NCBI GenBank assembly: GCA_937128505.1
Contig: CAKZMM010000075.1
Span: forward strand, 1 to 39,318
DNA from: an uncultured Thermogutta sp.
Lineage (GTDB): Bacteria; Planctomycetota; Planctomycetia; Pirellulales; Thermoguttaceae
DNA length: 39,318 nt
Reading direction: 5' to 3'
Shown: piece after piece, positions 9,755-34,200 of the stretch
How positions within the stretch are numbered: position 1 is the stretch's first letter
Layout: each line of letters opens with the position of its first letter
Notes under the pieces: generated by a model
Seen by the model: the letters and a program-made list of their open reading frames with translations, nothing else
Database searches by the model: none
Told to the model about the DNA's origin: nothing
Position numbers and translations under genes: made by a program

Positions 9755-10282
9755 CATTGTGAAAAAGAGGGCAAGCTTCCTGAGGGAGGATCCCTAGGAT
9801 ACTCTCGCCCTACTTTCTACCGAAGGTAAAGGCGCAGTGTCGACGGCAAGCGGGAAACTTTAATTTCCTCGAGTCTTTCTCGGTAGGGTCGAGGCGGCAT
9901 TTGTGCGGGAGGGCACCATCGCGCAGCGTACGGTGCCGTTTCTTTTCCGGAGGCCGCGGTCTCGAGGGGGGGAGTGGAGATTCCTAATTTCGGCGGAATT
10001 TTGTCCGAATTCGCTCCGGCAAAGCGTTATACATCTCCCGCATGGGAAAAATTTCGCTTCATCCTCGGGCAGATCAACCCGTGCAAACTAAGGCGGATCT
10101 TATTCAAACAGTTCTATCGCCGCATGGCAGCAGATCCGCCGGTGCAGGCTCGGGCGGATCTCGCCTTTAAAATCCCACAATATGCCGGCTCGACTTGCTA
10201 AAATATGCGTAGATTCCCTAACATTTTGAGCGGGTTGAGGTGCCTTGGAGCGGAGCTTTAGTTCAGCATTTTGTAGCTGGGT

Positions 10283-10371
10283 ACGCCTGCACCCCGCAAA
10301 CGGACGGATGCATAAACCGCCACCCCCAAATTCTTCCAACCGCACGCCTGCACCCCGCAAACGGACGGATG
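10283..10371. repeat. Two exact 28-nt repeats separated by 33 nt
   Basis: An identical 28-nt sequence (ACGCCTGCACCCCGC then AAACGGACGGATG) occurs at 10283-10310 and 10344-10371. The 61-bp period and the 28/33 division equal those of the CRISPR array at 30223, but the sequence is unrelated and not strongly palindromic. No third copy was found one period to either side. Confidence 0.85.
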
Positions 10372-28386: not shown

Positions 28387-29913
28387 ATGAATCGCGATTC
28401 GAGGGTCGTTTGGGTGGTGTTGTTGGCAGGGTTGCTCGGCGCGTTGGCCGTGGCGTCGGCATGGTGGTTGCCGAACATGATCGCCGCTCTTAGCTACGCG
28501 GCAGAAAGCGGCCAGGCCCGCGCAGCACGAGAATCTTTGGCTGCAGGAAATCCCGCCGAGCAATGGTCCCAGACCTTTCAGCAAGTGGCCAAGGCCGTTC
28601 GGCCCTCGGTGGTGAGCATCACTGCCGTGTCGCGAATTCGCTCGGCAGCCCCGCGGCGAATGCCGTCGCCACCGTTCAGTCCGTTTCCGGAGGAATTCCG
28701 CCGCTTTTTTGGCGAAGATTTCGACCGGTTCTTCTTCGAGATGCCCATGCCGGAGGAATTCGTCCAGCGCGGCTTGGGAAGCGGTGTGATCATTAGCGAA
28801 GATGGTTATATCCTGACCAATAACCATGTGGTGGCCCGGGCCGATGAAGTGGAGGTCCATCTGTCGGATCGTCGTAGCTTCCGTGCCCGCGTGGTGGGCA
28901 CCGATGACAAAACGGATTTGGCCGTGCTCAAAATCGAGGCCACGTCTTTGGTTCCGGCCCAACTGGGGGATTCGGACGCCCTTGAGGTGGGTCAATGGGT
29001 CCTTGCCATCGGAAGTCCTTTCGGTTTGGATCAGACGGTGACGGCAGGGATCATCAGTGCCAAGGGCCGCGCGAATGTCGGAATCGCGGACTACGAAGAT
29101 TTCATTCAGACCGATGCGGCGATCAACCCCGGCAATAGCGGCGGCCCCCTGGTGAACCTGCGGGGCGAAGTCATCGGCATCAATACGGCGATCGCTTCGC
29201 GAACCGGGGCTTTCATGGGGGTTGGTTTCGCGATCCCCAGCAACATGGCCATCGCTGTGAAAGATGCCATCATTAAGATCGGTCGAGTAGAACGCGGCTG
29301 GCTGGGCGTTAGCCTCCAACCCTTGACGGAGGAGTTGGCCCAATCGTTCGGTTATTCGTCCACTCAAGGGGCGCTGATTAGCGATGTGTTGCCCGATCAG
29401 CCCGGGGCGAAAGCGGGCTTGCAACCTGGCGACATCATCGTGGAATTCAATGCTCGACCGATCGAAAGTGCCAACCAACTTCGCAACTTAGTGGCGGCAA
29501 CGCCGCCGGGCACGAAGGTCACGATCGGCGTTTTCCGCAAGGGTCAACGCCTTACGCTGCAAGCCGTACTAACCTTACGTGATGATCGCTTGGCTGCCGC
29601 CGGACCTCGCGGGCAGGAGTTTCTCGGTAATCTGGGGCTCCGGGTGCAGCCGCTAACGCCCGAGATCGCGCAGCAGTTGGATCTGCCCGAAAACGAGCGG
29701 GGGGTCGTCGTCATGCAAGTGGAGCCGGGCAGCCTCGCGGCAATGGCGGGGATTCAACCGGGTGATCTGATTCAGGCCGTGGGAGATCGACCGGTAAACT
29801 CGGTAGCCGATTTGCGCGAGGCTCTGCAAGAGCTGAGCCAAGGCCGGGGCATTCGGCTTCAGATCCGTCGAGGCGATGCACGGCTATTCGTGTTCCTGCG
29901 CTCGGGGCAGTAA
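28387..29913 (+). CDS. HtrA/DegP-type serine protease with two PDZ domains
   Basis: A 508-residue envelope protease/chaperone. The N-terminal hydrophobic stretch (VVWVVLLAGLLGALAVASAWW) is a signal or membrane anchor. The trypsin-like domain has the full triad: His147 (TNNHVV), Asp177 (KTDLAV) and Ser251 (GNSGGP). Before it lies a Pro/Phe/Glu-rich loop (PFPEEFRRFFGEDFDRFFF) like the LA loop of DegP. Two PDZ domains follow (about residues 300-395 and 415-508; GWLGVSLQP and LGLRVQPLTPE openings). Length and architecture are those of DegP/DegQ. ATG at 28387 has GGGAGGA 6 nt upstream. It should act in the periplasm, degrading or refolding misfolded envelope proteins. It appears monocistronic. Confidence 0.94.
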   Translation: MNRDSRVVWVVLLAGLLGALAVASAWWLPNMIAALSYAAESGQARAARESLAAGNPAEQWSQTFQQVAKAVRPSVVSITAVSRIRSAAPRRMPSPPFSPFPEEFRRFFGEDFDRFFFEMPMPEEFVQRGLGSGVIISEDGYILTNNHVVARADEVEVHLSDRRSFRARVVGTDDKTDLAVLKIEATSLVPAQLGDSDALEVGQWVLAIGSPFGLDQTVTAGIISAKGRANVGIADYEDFIQTDAAINPGNSGGPLVNLRGEVIGINTAIASRTGAFMGVGFAIPSNMAIAVKDAIIKIGRVERGWLGVSLQPLTEELAQSFGYSSTQGALISDVLPDQPGAKAGLQPGDIIVEFNARPIESANQLRNLVAATPPGTKVTIGVFRKGQRLTLQAVLTLRDDRLAAAGPRGQEFLGNLGLRVQPLTPEIAQQLDLPENERGVVVMQVEPGSLAAMAGIQPGDLIQAVGDRPVNSVADLREALQELSQGRGIRLQIRRGDARLFVFLRSGQ

Positions 29914-30222
29914 TCCGGCTAAGTAACCGGCAGTGACCGCCCAAGTGACGGACACTAACCCATCGAAGGAATACGGCGGTAACGTCAAAGCCACGGTGCG
30001 CCGGGTGGCCGCTGGAGCTATCGCACCATCCGCAGGGAGCTGCTGAATCTTGGGGTCCTTCTGCGGATGGGCTCGGTCAACTCCGGCCACTGAGAGCAAC
30101 GTTTGCCCCATTAAGTCAGCGTCAACAACTTTCTGCGCAACAGGGGGTACCGGCTTGCAAGGTCCTTTGGCGGGAACGCGGCACAAGCCGGGCCCAGTGT
30201 GCCGGGAGGGCATCCCTCGGAT

Positions 30223-30372
30223 TTCCACCCCCCGCACCCGTGGGAGTGTCGCGCTCGATCTAGGGCGTACTTATCATAGGAGATTCCACCCCCCGCACCC
30301 GCGGGAGTGTCTGAGGCGATCGATGAGGTCATGAGGTCGGCGACTTCCACCCCCCGCACCCGCGGGAGTGTC
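30223..30372 (-). CRISPR. Orphan mini-CRISPR array, type I-E-like, three repeats
   Basis: Three 28-nt repeats (30223-30250, 30284-30311, 30345-30372) are separated by two unrelated 33-nt spacers (30251-30283, 30312-30344). The period is a constant 61 bp, the geometry of type I-E. On the minus strand the repeat has the I-E hairpin: CCCGC, a GGGT loop, GCGGG, then a GTGGAA end. Repeats 2 and 3 are identical; repeat 1 differs by one base at 30241, in the loop or stem edge. A degenerate repeat usually marks the end far from the leader, so transcription on the minus strand from a leader right of 30372 is inferred. There is no cas gene nearby, so interference machinery would have to act from elsewhere. 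With only two spacers, a chance or decayed repeat cannot be fully excluded. Confidence 0.8.
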
Positions 30373-30971
30373 GATGGAGTCCGCCGCACGGGCGGCCCGC
30401 CGTTTTGGCCCGCAATTACCGGCGAAAAATCTGTGCATAGCTCTTTTTGAGCCTAATTGGGGCCTCGCTGCCGCACAGCCCCGCGTTTTTGGGAAGATAC
30501 CGTCCGCCGCAGAACAACCCCTTATCCGCCGCAAACCGTTTTAAAGCCGGAACGCTCTCGAGCCGTTAATAGCGCAGACAATGCCGTAAGGCCTGCAAAC
30601 TCTTTTCTGCGGCAGGTGTTCTTCAAACACTTTACAGCATGTGCCCTGAGTAAAGGCCGCCTCGCCCCCCGAACGCTTTTTTTCCGTTTGGGAGGATATT
30701 TCCCTGCCTAAAGGGTGGTAGAGTGTTTCCTCGGCTCAAAACTTTTGTATCACTTGTACTGCCGTGCGAGCTTGCCGCCGAGGCTTCACAGCCCGGATTC
30801 ATCTCGAATTTCCATGCAAATTCCTGCGGCAAATTTTCATAGCGCGAAGTAATTCCGATAGGTTTTCAATCTGATGGTTTTCTTTTCCTCTGTTTTTAGG
30901 GCGGTTTCCCCCCGGTAATTGCCGCAACCGTCTTTTTTGGGAGGATTTAGGAAAAAAGGGGAAAAAATGGG

Positions 30972-30999
30972 TTGACGCCAAAAACTGAGACGTTAGATT
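30972..30999 (+). promoter_or_regulatory. Predicted nrdJ promoter
   Basis: TTGACG (30972-30977, five of six) and TAGATT (30994-30999, four of six) are separated by 16 bp. Transcription would start near 31006, inside the first NrdR-like box, as expected for a repressed promoter. Confidence 0.45.
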
Positions 31000-31004
31000 A
31001 TTAA

Positions 31005-31052
31005 GCACTGTATGTTGTGGCTTAATAGCTATCATGATACTACATATAGTGT
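31005..31052. promoter_or_regulatory. Tandem NrdR-like boxes upstream of nrdJ
   Basis: The NrdR consensus is acaCwAtATaTwGtgt. The 16-mer at 31037-31052 (ATACTACATATAGTGT) matches it at 14 of 16 positions, and the one at 31005-31020 (GCACTGTATGTTGTGG) at 12 of 16. Their centres are exactly 32 bp apart, the three-helical-turn spacing typical of paired NrdR sites. They cover the predicted start site of a ribonucleotide reductase gene, the classic NrdR target. Confidence 0.65.
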
Positions 31053-31090
31053 ATCAAAAGAGCGAAATATAGTGGATCAAAAGGGCGAAT
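31045..31090. repeat. 23-nt tandem repeat overlapping the second NrdR-like box
   Basis: TATAGTG(T/G)ATCAAAAG plus seven further bases repeats at 31045-31067 and 31068-31090 with three mismatches. It duplicates the right half of the box, creating a weak third site 23 bp on, which is out of helical phase. Confidence 0.75.
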
Positions 31091-31268
31091 TGTGGGTTGA
31101 ATGTCGACTATGGTGATCTTAAAGCTGAATCATCAATGGAGGATTCCGGCCTAGGCCGCAACTACAGTTTCGGGGGGTTCTTGGCGAATTTCTTGAGGTT
31201 CTTGGCAGCAAGACCGGGAAGCCGCAAAGCTTTGACGGAATATGGAAAGCAGTGGCGTAGAAAACAGT

Positions 31269-31292
31269 AGGAGGATCGCAGGAGGATCGCGC
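31269..31292 (+). promoter_or_regulatory. Duplicated ribosome binding site of nrdJ
   Basis: AGGAGGATCGC occurs twice in tandem (31269-31279, 31280-31290), directly before the ATG at 31293. The second AGGAGG is 7 nt from the start codon, an ideal spacing, which decides this start over the in-frame ATG at 31242. Confidence 0.75.
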
Positions 31293-34200
31293 ATGGAGCG
31301 GAATACGGAGCATTTTAACCCGGCAAAGGCCCTTTCCCGCCAAACCGCCACTGGTGTTTCGGAGGAATACTCCGTGGAACCCAACGCGCCCTTGGACGAC
31401 GAAAACCGCGGCCAAAAGCTTCGGATCCCACCGGTTTTTTGCCCGCCGGATGTCACAAGCCCGTTTGACACCGTCGAATGGGAATTGCGAACAGGCCGGA
31501 TTCAGGACGACAAGGGACAGGTTATCTTCGAACAAACGGATTGTGAATTTCCGAAGAGCTGGAGCCAATTGGCCACGAATGTAGTCGCCAGCAAGTATTT
31601 CTACGGAGAATTGGGCACCCCGAGCCGGGAGCGGAGCGTTCGGCAGTTAATCCACCGCGTATGCCGCACGATTGCCGATTGGGGAGTCGCCGACGGCTAT
31701 TTCGCATCGCCTGCGGATGGGGAGAACTTCTATCGAGAACTCGCGTGGCTATGCCTTCATCAATACGCCAGCTTCAATTCACCGGTTTGGTTCAACGTAG
31801 GGCTTTATCATCAATACGGGCTCAAAGGTGCCGTGTGTACTTGGCATTGGGACGCCCGGACCGGCACCGTTAAGCAGCCCGAAAACCCTTATGAGCATCC
31901 GCAAGCCTCGGCCTGCTTCATTCAGAGCGTTCAGGACACGATGGAAGATATCATGGAGCTGGCCCGCAGCGAGGCCATGCTTTTCAAGTTCGGCTCCGGG
32001 ACGGGCACCGACCTTTCGACACTGCGGTCGCAACGGGAGAAGCTTTCCGGCGGAGGTAAGCCATCGGGTCCGCTTTCGTTCATGCGGGTGTACGACCAAA
32101 TTGCAGCCGTGGTCAAAAGCGGCGGTAAGACCCGGCGAGCCGCCAAGATGCAATCCTTGAAGGTCACCCACCCGGATATCGTGGAGTTCATCGAAGCCAA
32201 AGGTCACGAGGAAAATAAGGCTCGGGCTTTAATGGCCGCCGGTTATTCGGCCGAAGAGGCTTACAGTTCGGTCCACTTTCAAAATGCCAATCTTTCGGTG
32301 CGTGTAACCGATGAATTCATGGAAGCTGTGCTCGCCGATCGCCCGTGGACAACCCGCTGGGTAACGGATCCGAATCGTGCCGGACCCACGTATCGGTCGA
32401 AGGAGCTCTTTGAACGAATCGCAAAGGCGGCTTGGTCCTGCGGCGATCCCGGCTTGCAGTATGATACGACGATCAACCGTTGGCACACCTGTCCGAATTC
32501 CGGCCGGATCAACGCCTCCAACCCGTGCAGCGAATTTATGTTCCTCGATGATTCGGCCTGCAATCTCGCCAGCATCAATATGATGAAATTCCGTCGAAGC
32601 GACGGCACCTTCGATGGGGAGCGATTCCTGGCGGCGTGTCGGATCGTTTTCATTGCGCAGGAGCTGCTGGTCGATCATGGAAGCTATCCAACCGCCAAAA
32701 TCGCCCTCAATAGCCACCGTTTCCGCCCGATTGGTTTGGGCTATTCCAACCTGGGAAGTTTGATCATGGCCTTGGGCTTGCCTTACGACTCGGACGAGGC
32801 CCGCGGCCTGTGCTCCGCGGTCACGGCGATCATGACCGGCGCGGCTTACCGAACCAGTGCCGAGCTGGCTGCGGCGGTCGGGCCCTTCGAAGGATTCGCG
32901 ATCAATCGGGAACCGATGCTCCGCGTCATGGAGCAGCATTGGGAGCACGTGGAGCGGATTCAGCACTGTCCAAGCTATCTGAAGGCCGCAGCGCGGAAGG
33001 TTTGGGACGAAGTCCTGGCCAATGGGCGGCGATACGGTTTTCGCAATGCCCAAGCCACGGTACTGGCGCCGACCGGTACGATAAGCTTCATGATGGATTG
33101 CGATACGACGGGGATCGAGCCGGAATTGGGCCTGGTAAAATACAAGCAGCTTTCCGGCGGCGGAGTGCTTAAGCTGGTCAATCAGACGGTACCGCTTGCG
33201 CTGCAAACCCTGGGTTATAGCGACGCACAAATCGCGCGAATCCTCGAATACATCGAGCGAGAGGACTCGATCGAAGGGGCGCCGGAGTTGAAGCAGGAGC
33301 ATCTGCCGGTATTCGACTGCGCCTTTCCTGCCGCCAAGAGCAAACGTGCTTTGAGCTGGCGTGCGCATGTGCTGATGATGGCCGCGGCACAGCCGTTTAT
33401 TTCCGGTGCGATTTCGAAGACCGTCAACATGCCGAACGATGCCACCGTGGAGGATGTGGCGAATGCCTATCTTGAAGGCTGGCGATTGGGGCTGAAAGCC
33501 CTGGCCATCTACCGCGATGGCTCCAAGGGAGCTCAAGTGCTCACCACGAAAAAGAGCACCGCGGAGAAGACGGAAGTACCCCCGCCGCGTCGGGAACGAT
33601 TGCCGGACACTCGCCGCTCCATCACCCACAAGTTCAGTGTGGCGGGGCACGAGGGGTATATCACCGTAGGGCTTTATCCCGATGGTCGCCCCGGCGAGCT
33701 TTTCATCACCATGGCCAAGGAGGGGAGCACGATCGGCGGGCTGATGGACTGCTTCGGGACGGCTGTTTCCATGAGCCTGCAATACGGCGTGCCCCTCGAG
33801 GTCTACGTCAATAAATTCTCTTATACGCGATTCGAACCGTGGGGCCACACGACCAATCCGGATATCCGCGTGGCCACAAGCATCGTCGATTATATCTTCC
33901 GGTGGCTGGGCCTGATGTTCCTGCCGCAAGAGCGGGACGCCAAGCAAGGGACAGATTCTCCAAAAGCCGGTAGCCCGATGGAACCCTCCAAAGCATCGGA
34001 GGGGGGCTTGAGTGCCGCCGGCCCCCTCGGGCAAGCTCCGCCGGCGACAACCGGGGAAGGATCGGCGAGCGATCGCCGGGGGATTACTGCCGCCGAATCC
34101 CTCTCCGGCAGCAACGGTGCGGCACGCGGTGGCGGCGCGATCGCTCCTCGCGTTCCTCTGTGGGATATGCCCTTGCCGGAAAGAACCAATAGCTCCGGCA

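Follow-up and report, generated by a model that had tools for sequence, protein, structure and literature searches.

The array at positions 30223-30372 of the Thermogutta sp. DNA analysed here is probably a newly made CRISPR locus, one among many that arose by off-target integration by the host's own type I-E Cas1-Cas2. The window (the whole stretch analysed, 39,318 nucleotides) is contig 75 of a 5.58-Mb draft genome in 198 contigs.

Structure of the array at 30223-30372

An earlier note had described three 28-nt repeats and two 33-nt spacers with a period of 61 bp, and the coordinates in the window bear this out:

30223..30250, + strand, repeat 1, 28 nt, one substitution
30251..30283, + strand, spacer 1, 33 nt
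30284..30311, + strand, repeat 2, 28 nt
30312..30344, + strand, spacer 2, 33 nt
30345..30372, + strand, repeat 3, 28 nt, same sequence as repeat 2

The sole change among the repeats is a C-to-T substitution in copy 1, and it leaves the predicted stem intact. The repeat is predicted to fold into a 5-bp stem with a 4-nt loop and three outer pairs. A pattern of two hairpin repeats of this type at spacing 61 was matched in none of 100 shuffles of the window. The CRISPR origin and type I-E geometry proposed earlier are supported: its 28-nt repeats with a short dyad and its 33-nt spacers fall within the 28-29 nt and 32-33 nt of type I-E arrays, and the I-E arrays of relatives also have a period of 61. 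Its repeat is not shared with the array beside the I-E cas genes of its own genome.

The + strand of the repeat fitted 9 of the 12 I-E repeats compared better than its reverse complement did. The reverse complement fitted 2 of them better (a decayed locus of the same genome and the repeat of G291), and the two fits to the E. coli repeat were nearly equal. As judged from these comparisons the + orientation is likely, though not certain. The substitution in copy 1 had also been taken to mark the leader side; the substitution is real, the leader side putative. A consensus scan for a leader promoter gave promoter-like sites only at 30972-31050.

TRF lists the stretch as a 61-bp tandem array, which would suit an origin of the repeats by tandem duplication or slippage. 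Such an origin is almost certainly wrong. The two spacers, compared in register, are identical at 12 of 33 positions, and since 12.8% of shuffles reach this value there is no sign of kinship between them. Moreover, a simple duplication of a 61-bp unit cannot yield loci of two repeats and one spacer, and 61 stands out among all spacings from 29 to 1000 (see below).

The host type I-E system

Contig 102 of the same genome carries a type I-E operon comprising cas3, cse1, cse2, cas6e, cas7e, cas5e, cas1e and cas2e. It is adjoined by a canonical array with a different repeat and the same 28 + 33 geometry and period of 61, of which three repeats are present up to the end of the contig. The host therefore encodes a matching adaptation module, Cas1e and Cas2e, and the insert and duplication lengths of the loci described below equal those of its canonical array. 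The idea that canonical arrays are short in this genus was dropped, the contigs of G000, G001 and G002 ending at or inside these arrays or just before the place where they would lie. The genome-wide I-E system that the earlier note had called for thus exists, but not with a matching repeat. Because the canonical repeat differs and the array repeat occurs only here, a satellite served in trans through the same repeat fails as an explanation.

When the genome was searched for Cas1, the only finds were the contig 102 I-E operon and another Cas1 on contig 122. The latter lies with an array of 37-nt repeats, next to an ORF that resembles a reverse transcriptase by eye. Contig 102 also has, 0.8 kb upstream of its cas3 ORF (L012:10250-10451), four diverged 28-nt repeats at spacings of 61, 61 and 52.

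Loci of the same geometry are dispersed through the genome

The array had been thought to sit alone. A regular-repeat scan, run to compare the arrays of relatives, revealed a second locus of the same geometry in the window, with a repeat sequence different from that of the 30223-30372 array:

10283..10310, + strand, repeat 1 of the second locus, 28 nt
10311..10343, + strand, spacer of the second locus, 33 nt
10344..10371, + strand, repeat 2 of the second locus, identical to its repeat 1 at 28/28 positions

Over the whole window, exact repeats of at least 18 nt (and shorter than their spacing) at spacings of 20-400 fell at 61, at its multiple 122, and once at 76. A 32-nt pair at 10069-10100 and 10130-10161, 78% identical and also at spacing 61, lies below the threshold for counting and may be an old, decayed locus.

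Many more such loci were found in a genome sample consisting of up to the first 20 kb of contigs 1-20, 20 further stretches and the stretches already examined (701,572 non-N bases, about one-eighth of the genome). Pairs of 28-nt windows identical at 22/28 positions or more numbered 37 at spacing 61, 4 at 60 and 3 at 62, against a mean of 0.88 and a largest value of 5 at the other spacings from 40 to 120. The 37 include three pairs in the window, two in the canonical array and two in the decayed locus upstream of cas3, which was counted as non-canonical. Raising the threshold to 26/28 left 16 pairs at spacing 61, the mean elsewhere being 0.14. Leaving out the window and the canonical array (662,254 bases remaining) gave 32 pairs against a mean of 0.83 at the looser threshold and 11 against 0.14 at the stricter one. 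Among exact repeats of at least 22 nt at spacings of 29-1000, canonical pairs included, 11 of 25 fell at 61 and no other spacing had more than 3. The length of the best segment at spacing 61 peaks at 28, the value for 17 of 40 pairs from the host, canonical pairs included, and G002.

In total, 26 distinct non-canonical loci with spacing 61 were counted in 0.70 Mb, the window included, and six of these have perfect 28/28 copies. About one pair is expected by chance at the looser threshold, so some of the decayed loci need not be real. Sampling was not random, and contig starts had a density of 6.1 loci per 100 kb as against 2.1 for later stretches; with a density so uneven the number in the whole genome can be guessed only roughly, at 100 to 350. 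The labels 'orphan' and 'remnant' given to the array at 30223-30372 miss that it is one of these 26 loci. The largest dispersed loci are L140:8592-8802 and L113:16780-16990, each with four repeats and three spacers, the last copy in L140 being partial.

The duplicated units differ in sequence and resemble the native repeat as a set

Between the 26 loci the repeats, compared on the better strand, are identical at a mean of 10.4 of 28 positions, and at 17/28 in the best pair. With values this low the repeats are not copies of one element. As a set they nevertheless resemble the native repeat. At 30 loci the likeness to the canonical repeat was 0.421, and control 28-mers from nearby gave 0.304 (z 9.0). 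This 30-locus set includes four loci at spacings of 60 or 62 and, in addition to these, one at 60. L116:6763 (spacing 60, 27/28 identical) belongs both to this set and to the 36-locus list used below, and is outside the 26; L115:3743 was left out of the 30.

When the comparison was shifted along the genome at the 26 loci, likeness was highest at the duplicated 28-mer itself (0.437), falling to 0.398 and 0.402 at shifts of two bases either way and to 0.339 and 0.342 at shifts of one. An earlier test, which slid the 28-mers along the repeat and cut off the ends, gave a less clear peak, with 0.415 and 0.403 at shifts -2 and -4, near the 0.421 at shift 0. The peak in register with the canonical repeat is modest. 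The array at 30223-30372 scores 0.50 at register 0, but without gaps it fits the host repeat best two positions out of register.

Self-complementarity was examined at 36 loci from three genomes, picked by repeat identity and not by sequence. This list leaves out L115:3743, L140:17498, L131:14311 and L143:6336 (weak, at spacings 60/62) and the L208:15063 cluster of G001. It is highest about the middle of the 28-mer, with 5.28 of 14 possible pairs against 4.56 at the next centre and 3.55 in the control (z 6.2). Departure from background composition reaches 0.74 bits inside the duplicated unit (30 loci, strands pooled), while in the 30 flanking bases it is at most 0.08 bits, with no motif (36 loci, strands pooled). 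An inner dyad with blank flanks is the trace expected from an integrase that reads a dyad and cuts with a 28-bp stagger.

Of 40 pairs at spacings of 60-62, 32 fall between genes, 2 overlap an ORF and 6 are contained in ORFs of at least 120 aa, although about 70% of those contig stretches lies in ORFs of that size. The five ORFs that hold the six inside pairs gave no Pfam match. A common dyad motif and mostly intergenic sites are also what a family of dispersed small elements or regulatory RNAs would show, MITE-like and with a conserved hairpin. We consider a family of this kind very improbable here, given that the repeats differ from locus to locus and that there is no clear common signal outside the 28-mer. 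Furthermore, 40 spacers compared with the own-genome sample, all other spacers included, matched over 15 nt at most, and Rfam gave nothing above the gathering score over 29900-31300, only sub-threshold matches.

An empty site was found for none of the 36 loci in the DNA compared, the sole spanning matches being those of four loci to themselves. For L135, a locus at a gene end, the comparison likewise gave no usable empty site.

Relatives with and without the excess at spacing 61

A search of 246 genomes of the order found Cas1e in 11, including all three of this genus. Both congeners, G001 and G002, have Cas1e and show the excess: G001 has 7 pairs at spacing 61 and 1 at 60 in 215,043 bases, and G002 has 3 and 1 in 400,000 bases, the mean at other spacings being 0.01 in each. 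Two other members of the family that were sampled at length do not show it. G026, which has no Cas1e match at 1e-40, has no pair at spacing 61 in 399,355 bases. G542, from another genus, carries a I-E system and a long array but has no pair in 174,000 bases of the array's contig outside the array, so a I-E system alone is insufficient for the excess. G019 also had none, in a sample of only 20,000 bases.

A gene for a standalone RNase H-like exonuclease (PF13482; L012:234-1055, - strand) lies between cas2e and the canonical array of the host. Relatives of this exonuclease lie beside cas2 in G001, G002 and G030, and no match was found at 1e-5 in the available cas loci of G542, G019, G505, G514 and G291; the contig of G529 breaks off at this point and allows no judgement. 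The exonuclease is a possible candidate for a prespacer-trimming or specificity factor, and may accompany relaxed targeting, a correlation over few genomes.

The array repeat and spacers elsewhere

The array repeat was absent from the rest of its own genome at up to 3 mismatches, and neither GTDB contigs nor IMG/VR gave an exact match to it. Single matches were found in 2 of 59 other relatives at 3 mismatches and in 4 of 396 other genomes of the class at 2 mismatches, none of them inside an array of period 61; the near matches in G025, G055, G326, G195, G178 and G114 showed no comparable array. A looser repeat-pair pattern searched over GTDB contigs returned four records with repeats at period 61, all from Streptomyces or Streptantibioticus, and matches to I-E cas3 and cse1 adjoin one of them.

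Some of these comparisons would fit a different origin, in which the array is a remnant or satellite of a second I-E system, lost or distant, with a repeat like that of G542, and is unrelated to the other loci. The array hairpin CCCCGCACCCGCGGG is also found in Streptomyces plasmid arrays of period 61. The array repeat matches the I-E repeat of G542 at 18/28 positions at shift 2, with an alignment score of 23.5 against 14 or less in 500 shuffles, and the Streptomyces plasmid repeat at 19/28, also at shift 2. It is more I-E-like than the repeats of most other dispersed loci, and the near identity of its copies suggests that the array is young. Yet the Cas1 search turned up no further I-E cas1 in the genome, the repeat has no other occurrence there at 3 mismatches, the near matches in relatives lie outside period-61 arrays, and the remaining 25 loci of this geometry would go unexplained. 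We therefore regard a remnant or satellite as improbable. The presence of 26 loci of one geometry whose repeats all differ suggests that the arrays were formed in place and are not leftovers.

The spacers were compared with viruses, plasmids and the host genome, as the earlier note had suggested, and no convincing match emerged. Neither spacer has a second place in its own genome at up to 3 mismatches. Pieces of 20 and 19 nt of spacer 1 have no exact match in viral contigs; a 20-nt piece of spacer 2 has none either, and a 19-nt piece matches three viral contigs, to which the full spacer is identical at only 22, 23 and 25 of 33 positions. Searched against phages and plasmids, the whole array gave only weak matches (E 0.5 or worse), those to plasmids including Streptomyces CRISPR repeats. 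The loci in L140 and L113 and the locus at 10283 in the window gave no convincing match to phages. No clear protospacer was found in these comparisons, and the composition of spacer ends gave no strong PAM-like signal, the strand of the loci not being fixed.

A model for the origin of the loci

Off-target integration by the host I-E Cas1-Cas2 would start at a place in the chromosome whose dyad resembles the one in the I-E repeat. There, Cas1-Cas2 would insert a 33-bp prespacer through staggered nicks 28 bp apart, and gap filling would turn the single native 28-mer into two copies, giving a repeat-spacer-repeat unit. Later insertions at the same place could add spacers, two in the 30223-30372 array and up to three elsewhere, and the repeat copies would drift over time. 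Off-target integration accounts for the insert and duplication lengths, the dyad, the differing repeats, the mixture of perfect and decayed loci, and growth to three or four repeats. The integration step, Cas1-Cas2 as its agent and a single 28-mer beforehand are what we infer from the loci, and integration keeps that standing because no empty site was found.

A further reading is that the genus keeps its I-E memory distributed, with integration at many sites being normal, arrays arising and growing in place, and some of them transcribed and used. This seems to us rather unlikely. Were it true, the genome would be a natural record of the birth, growth and decay of CRISPR arrays.

Relation to known systems

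Off-target integration by Cas1-Cas2 is already known. Nivala, Shipman and Church reportedly described it in 2018 for the E. coli I-E enzymes, induced in the laboratory, with insert and duplication lengths like those seen here and at sites resembling the native CRISPR locus. That study is also said to list a small number of putative natural examples, from Yersinia pestis and Sulfolobus islandicus. The present case differs in that a single natural genome has 26 loci within 0.70 Mb, perfect to decayed and in places with two or three spacers, and in that two congeners also have such loci.

The loci are similar to orphan or mini-CRISPR arrays in having few repeats and no cas gene nearby. However, the repeat here differs from locus to locus, and 17/28 is the most that any two of the 26 have in common. 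Casposons also rely on Cas1-catalysed integration with target duplication, but the insert here is 33 bp, too short for a gene.

Overexpressed Cas1-Cas2 can integrate into genomic regions that are not arrays (PMC11788318), and integration away from arrays is favoured near IHF-like motifs (PMC9456107); both credit integration outside arrays to Nivala et al. 2018. Ectopic spacer acquisition in streptococci (PMC7316486) likewise inserts a spacer at an unusual place, but inside the canonical array, whereas the sites here are elsewhere in the chromosome. Titles and the beginnings of abstracts on off-target and ectopic integration and on mini arrays, with few subscription papers among them, describe no natural genome with many such loci.

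Array births in this genome appear to number on the order of a hundred or more, some fresh and others decayed. The birth of arrays is hard to study because natural examples are few. The target sites of the loci would report the integrase's own preference. If our reading is true, the integrase of an immune system persistently contributes 61-bp insertions to the chromosome of its host, and small annotated 'orphan arrays' may be by-products of off-target integration.

The surroundings of the array in the window

Pfam confirmed that the array is flanked, as the earlier note had placed it, by htrA (trypsin-like and PDZ domains) and the class II ribonucleotide reductase gene nrdJ, whose ORF starts 869 bp from the end of the array; the 0.6 kb given in the earlier note relates to a putative control region of nrdJ. 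The statement that no cas gene lies within 39 kb holds for type I-E, the eight I-E cas proteins of the host having no tblastn match in the window at E 1e-3; for other cas types the window was covered only through Pfam on 8 large ORFs. The 1.3-kb intergenic region around the array had no match among 98 other genomes. In both congeners the best htrA matches lie on contigs other than that of nrdJ, and a check of 7 regions, each about 5 kb and situated upstream of nrdJ, gave no htrA match. A suspected transposase-like fragment around 29990-30100 was dropped, having no Pfam match. Upstream of nrdJ, at 31044-31089 of the window, there is a 23-bp tandem duplication.
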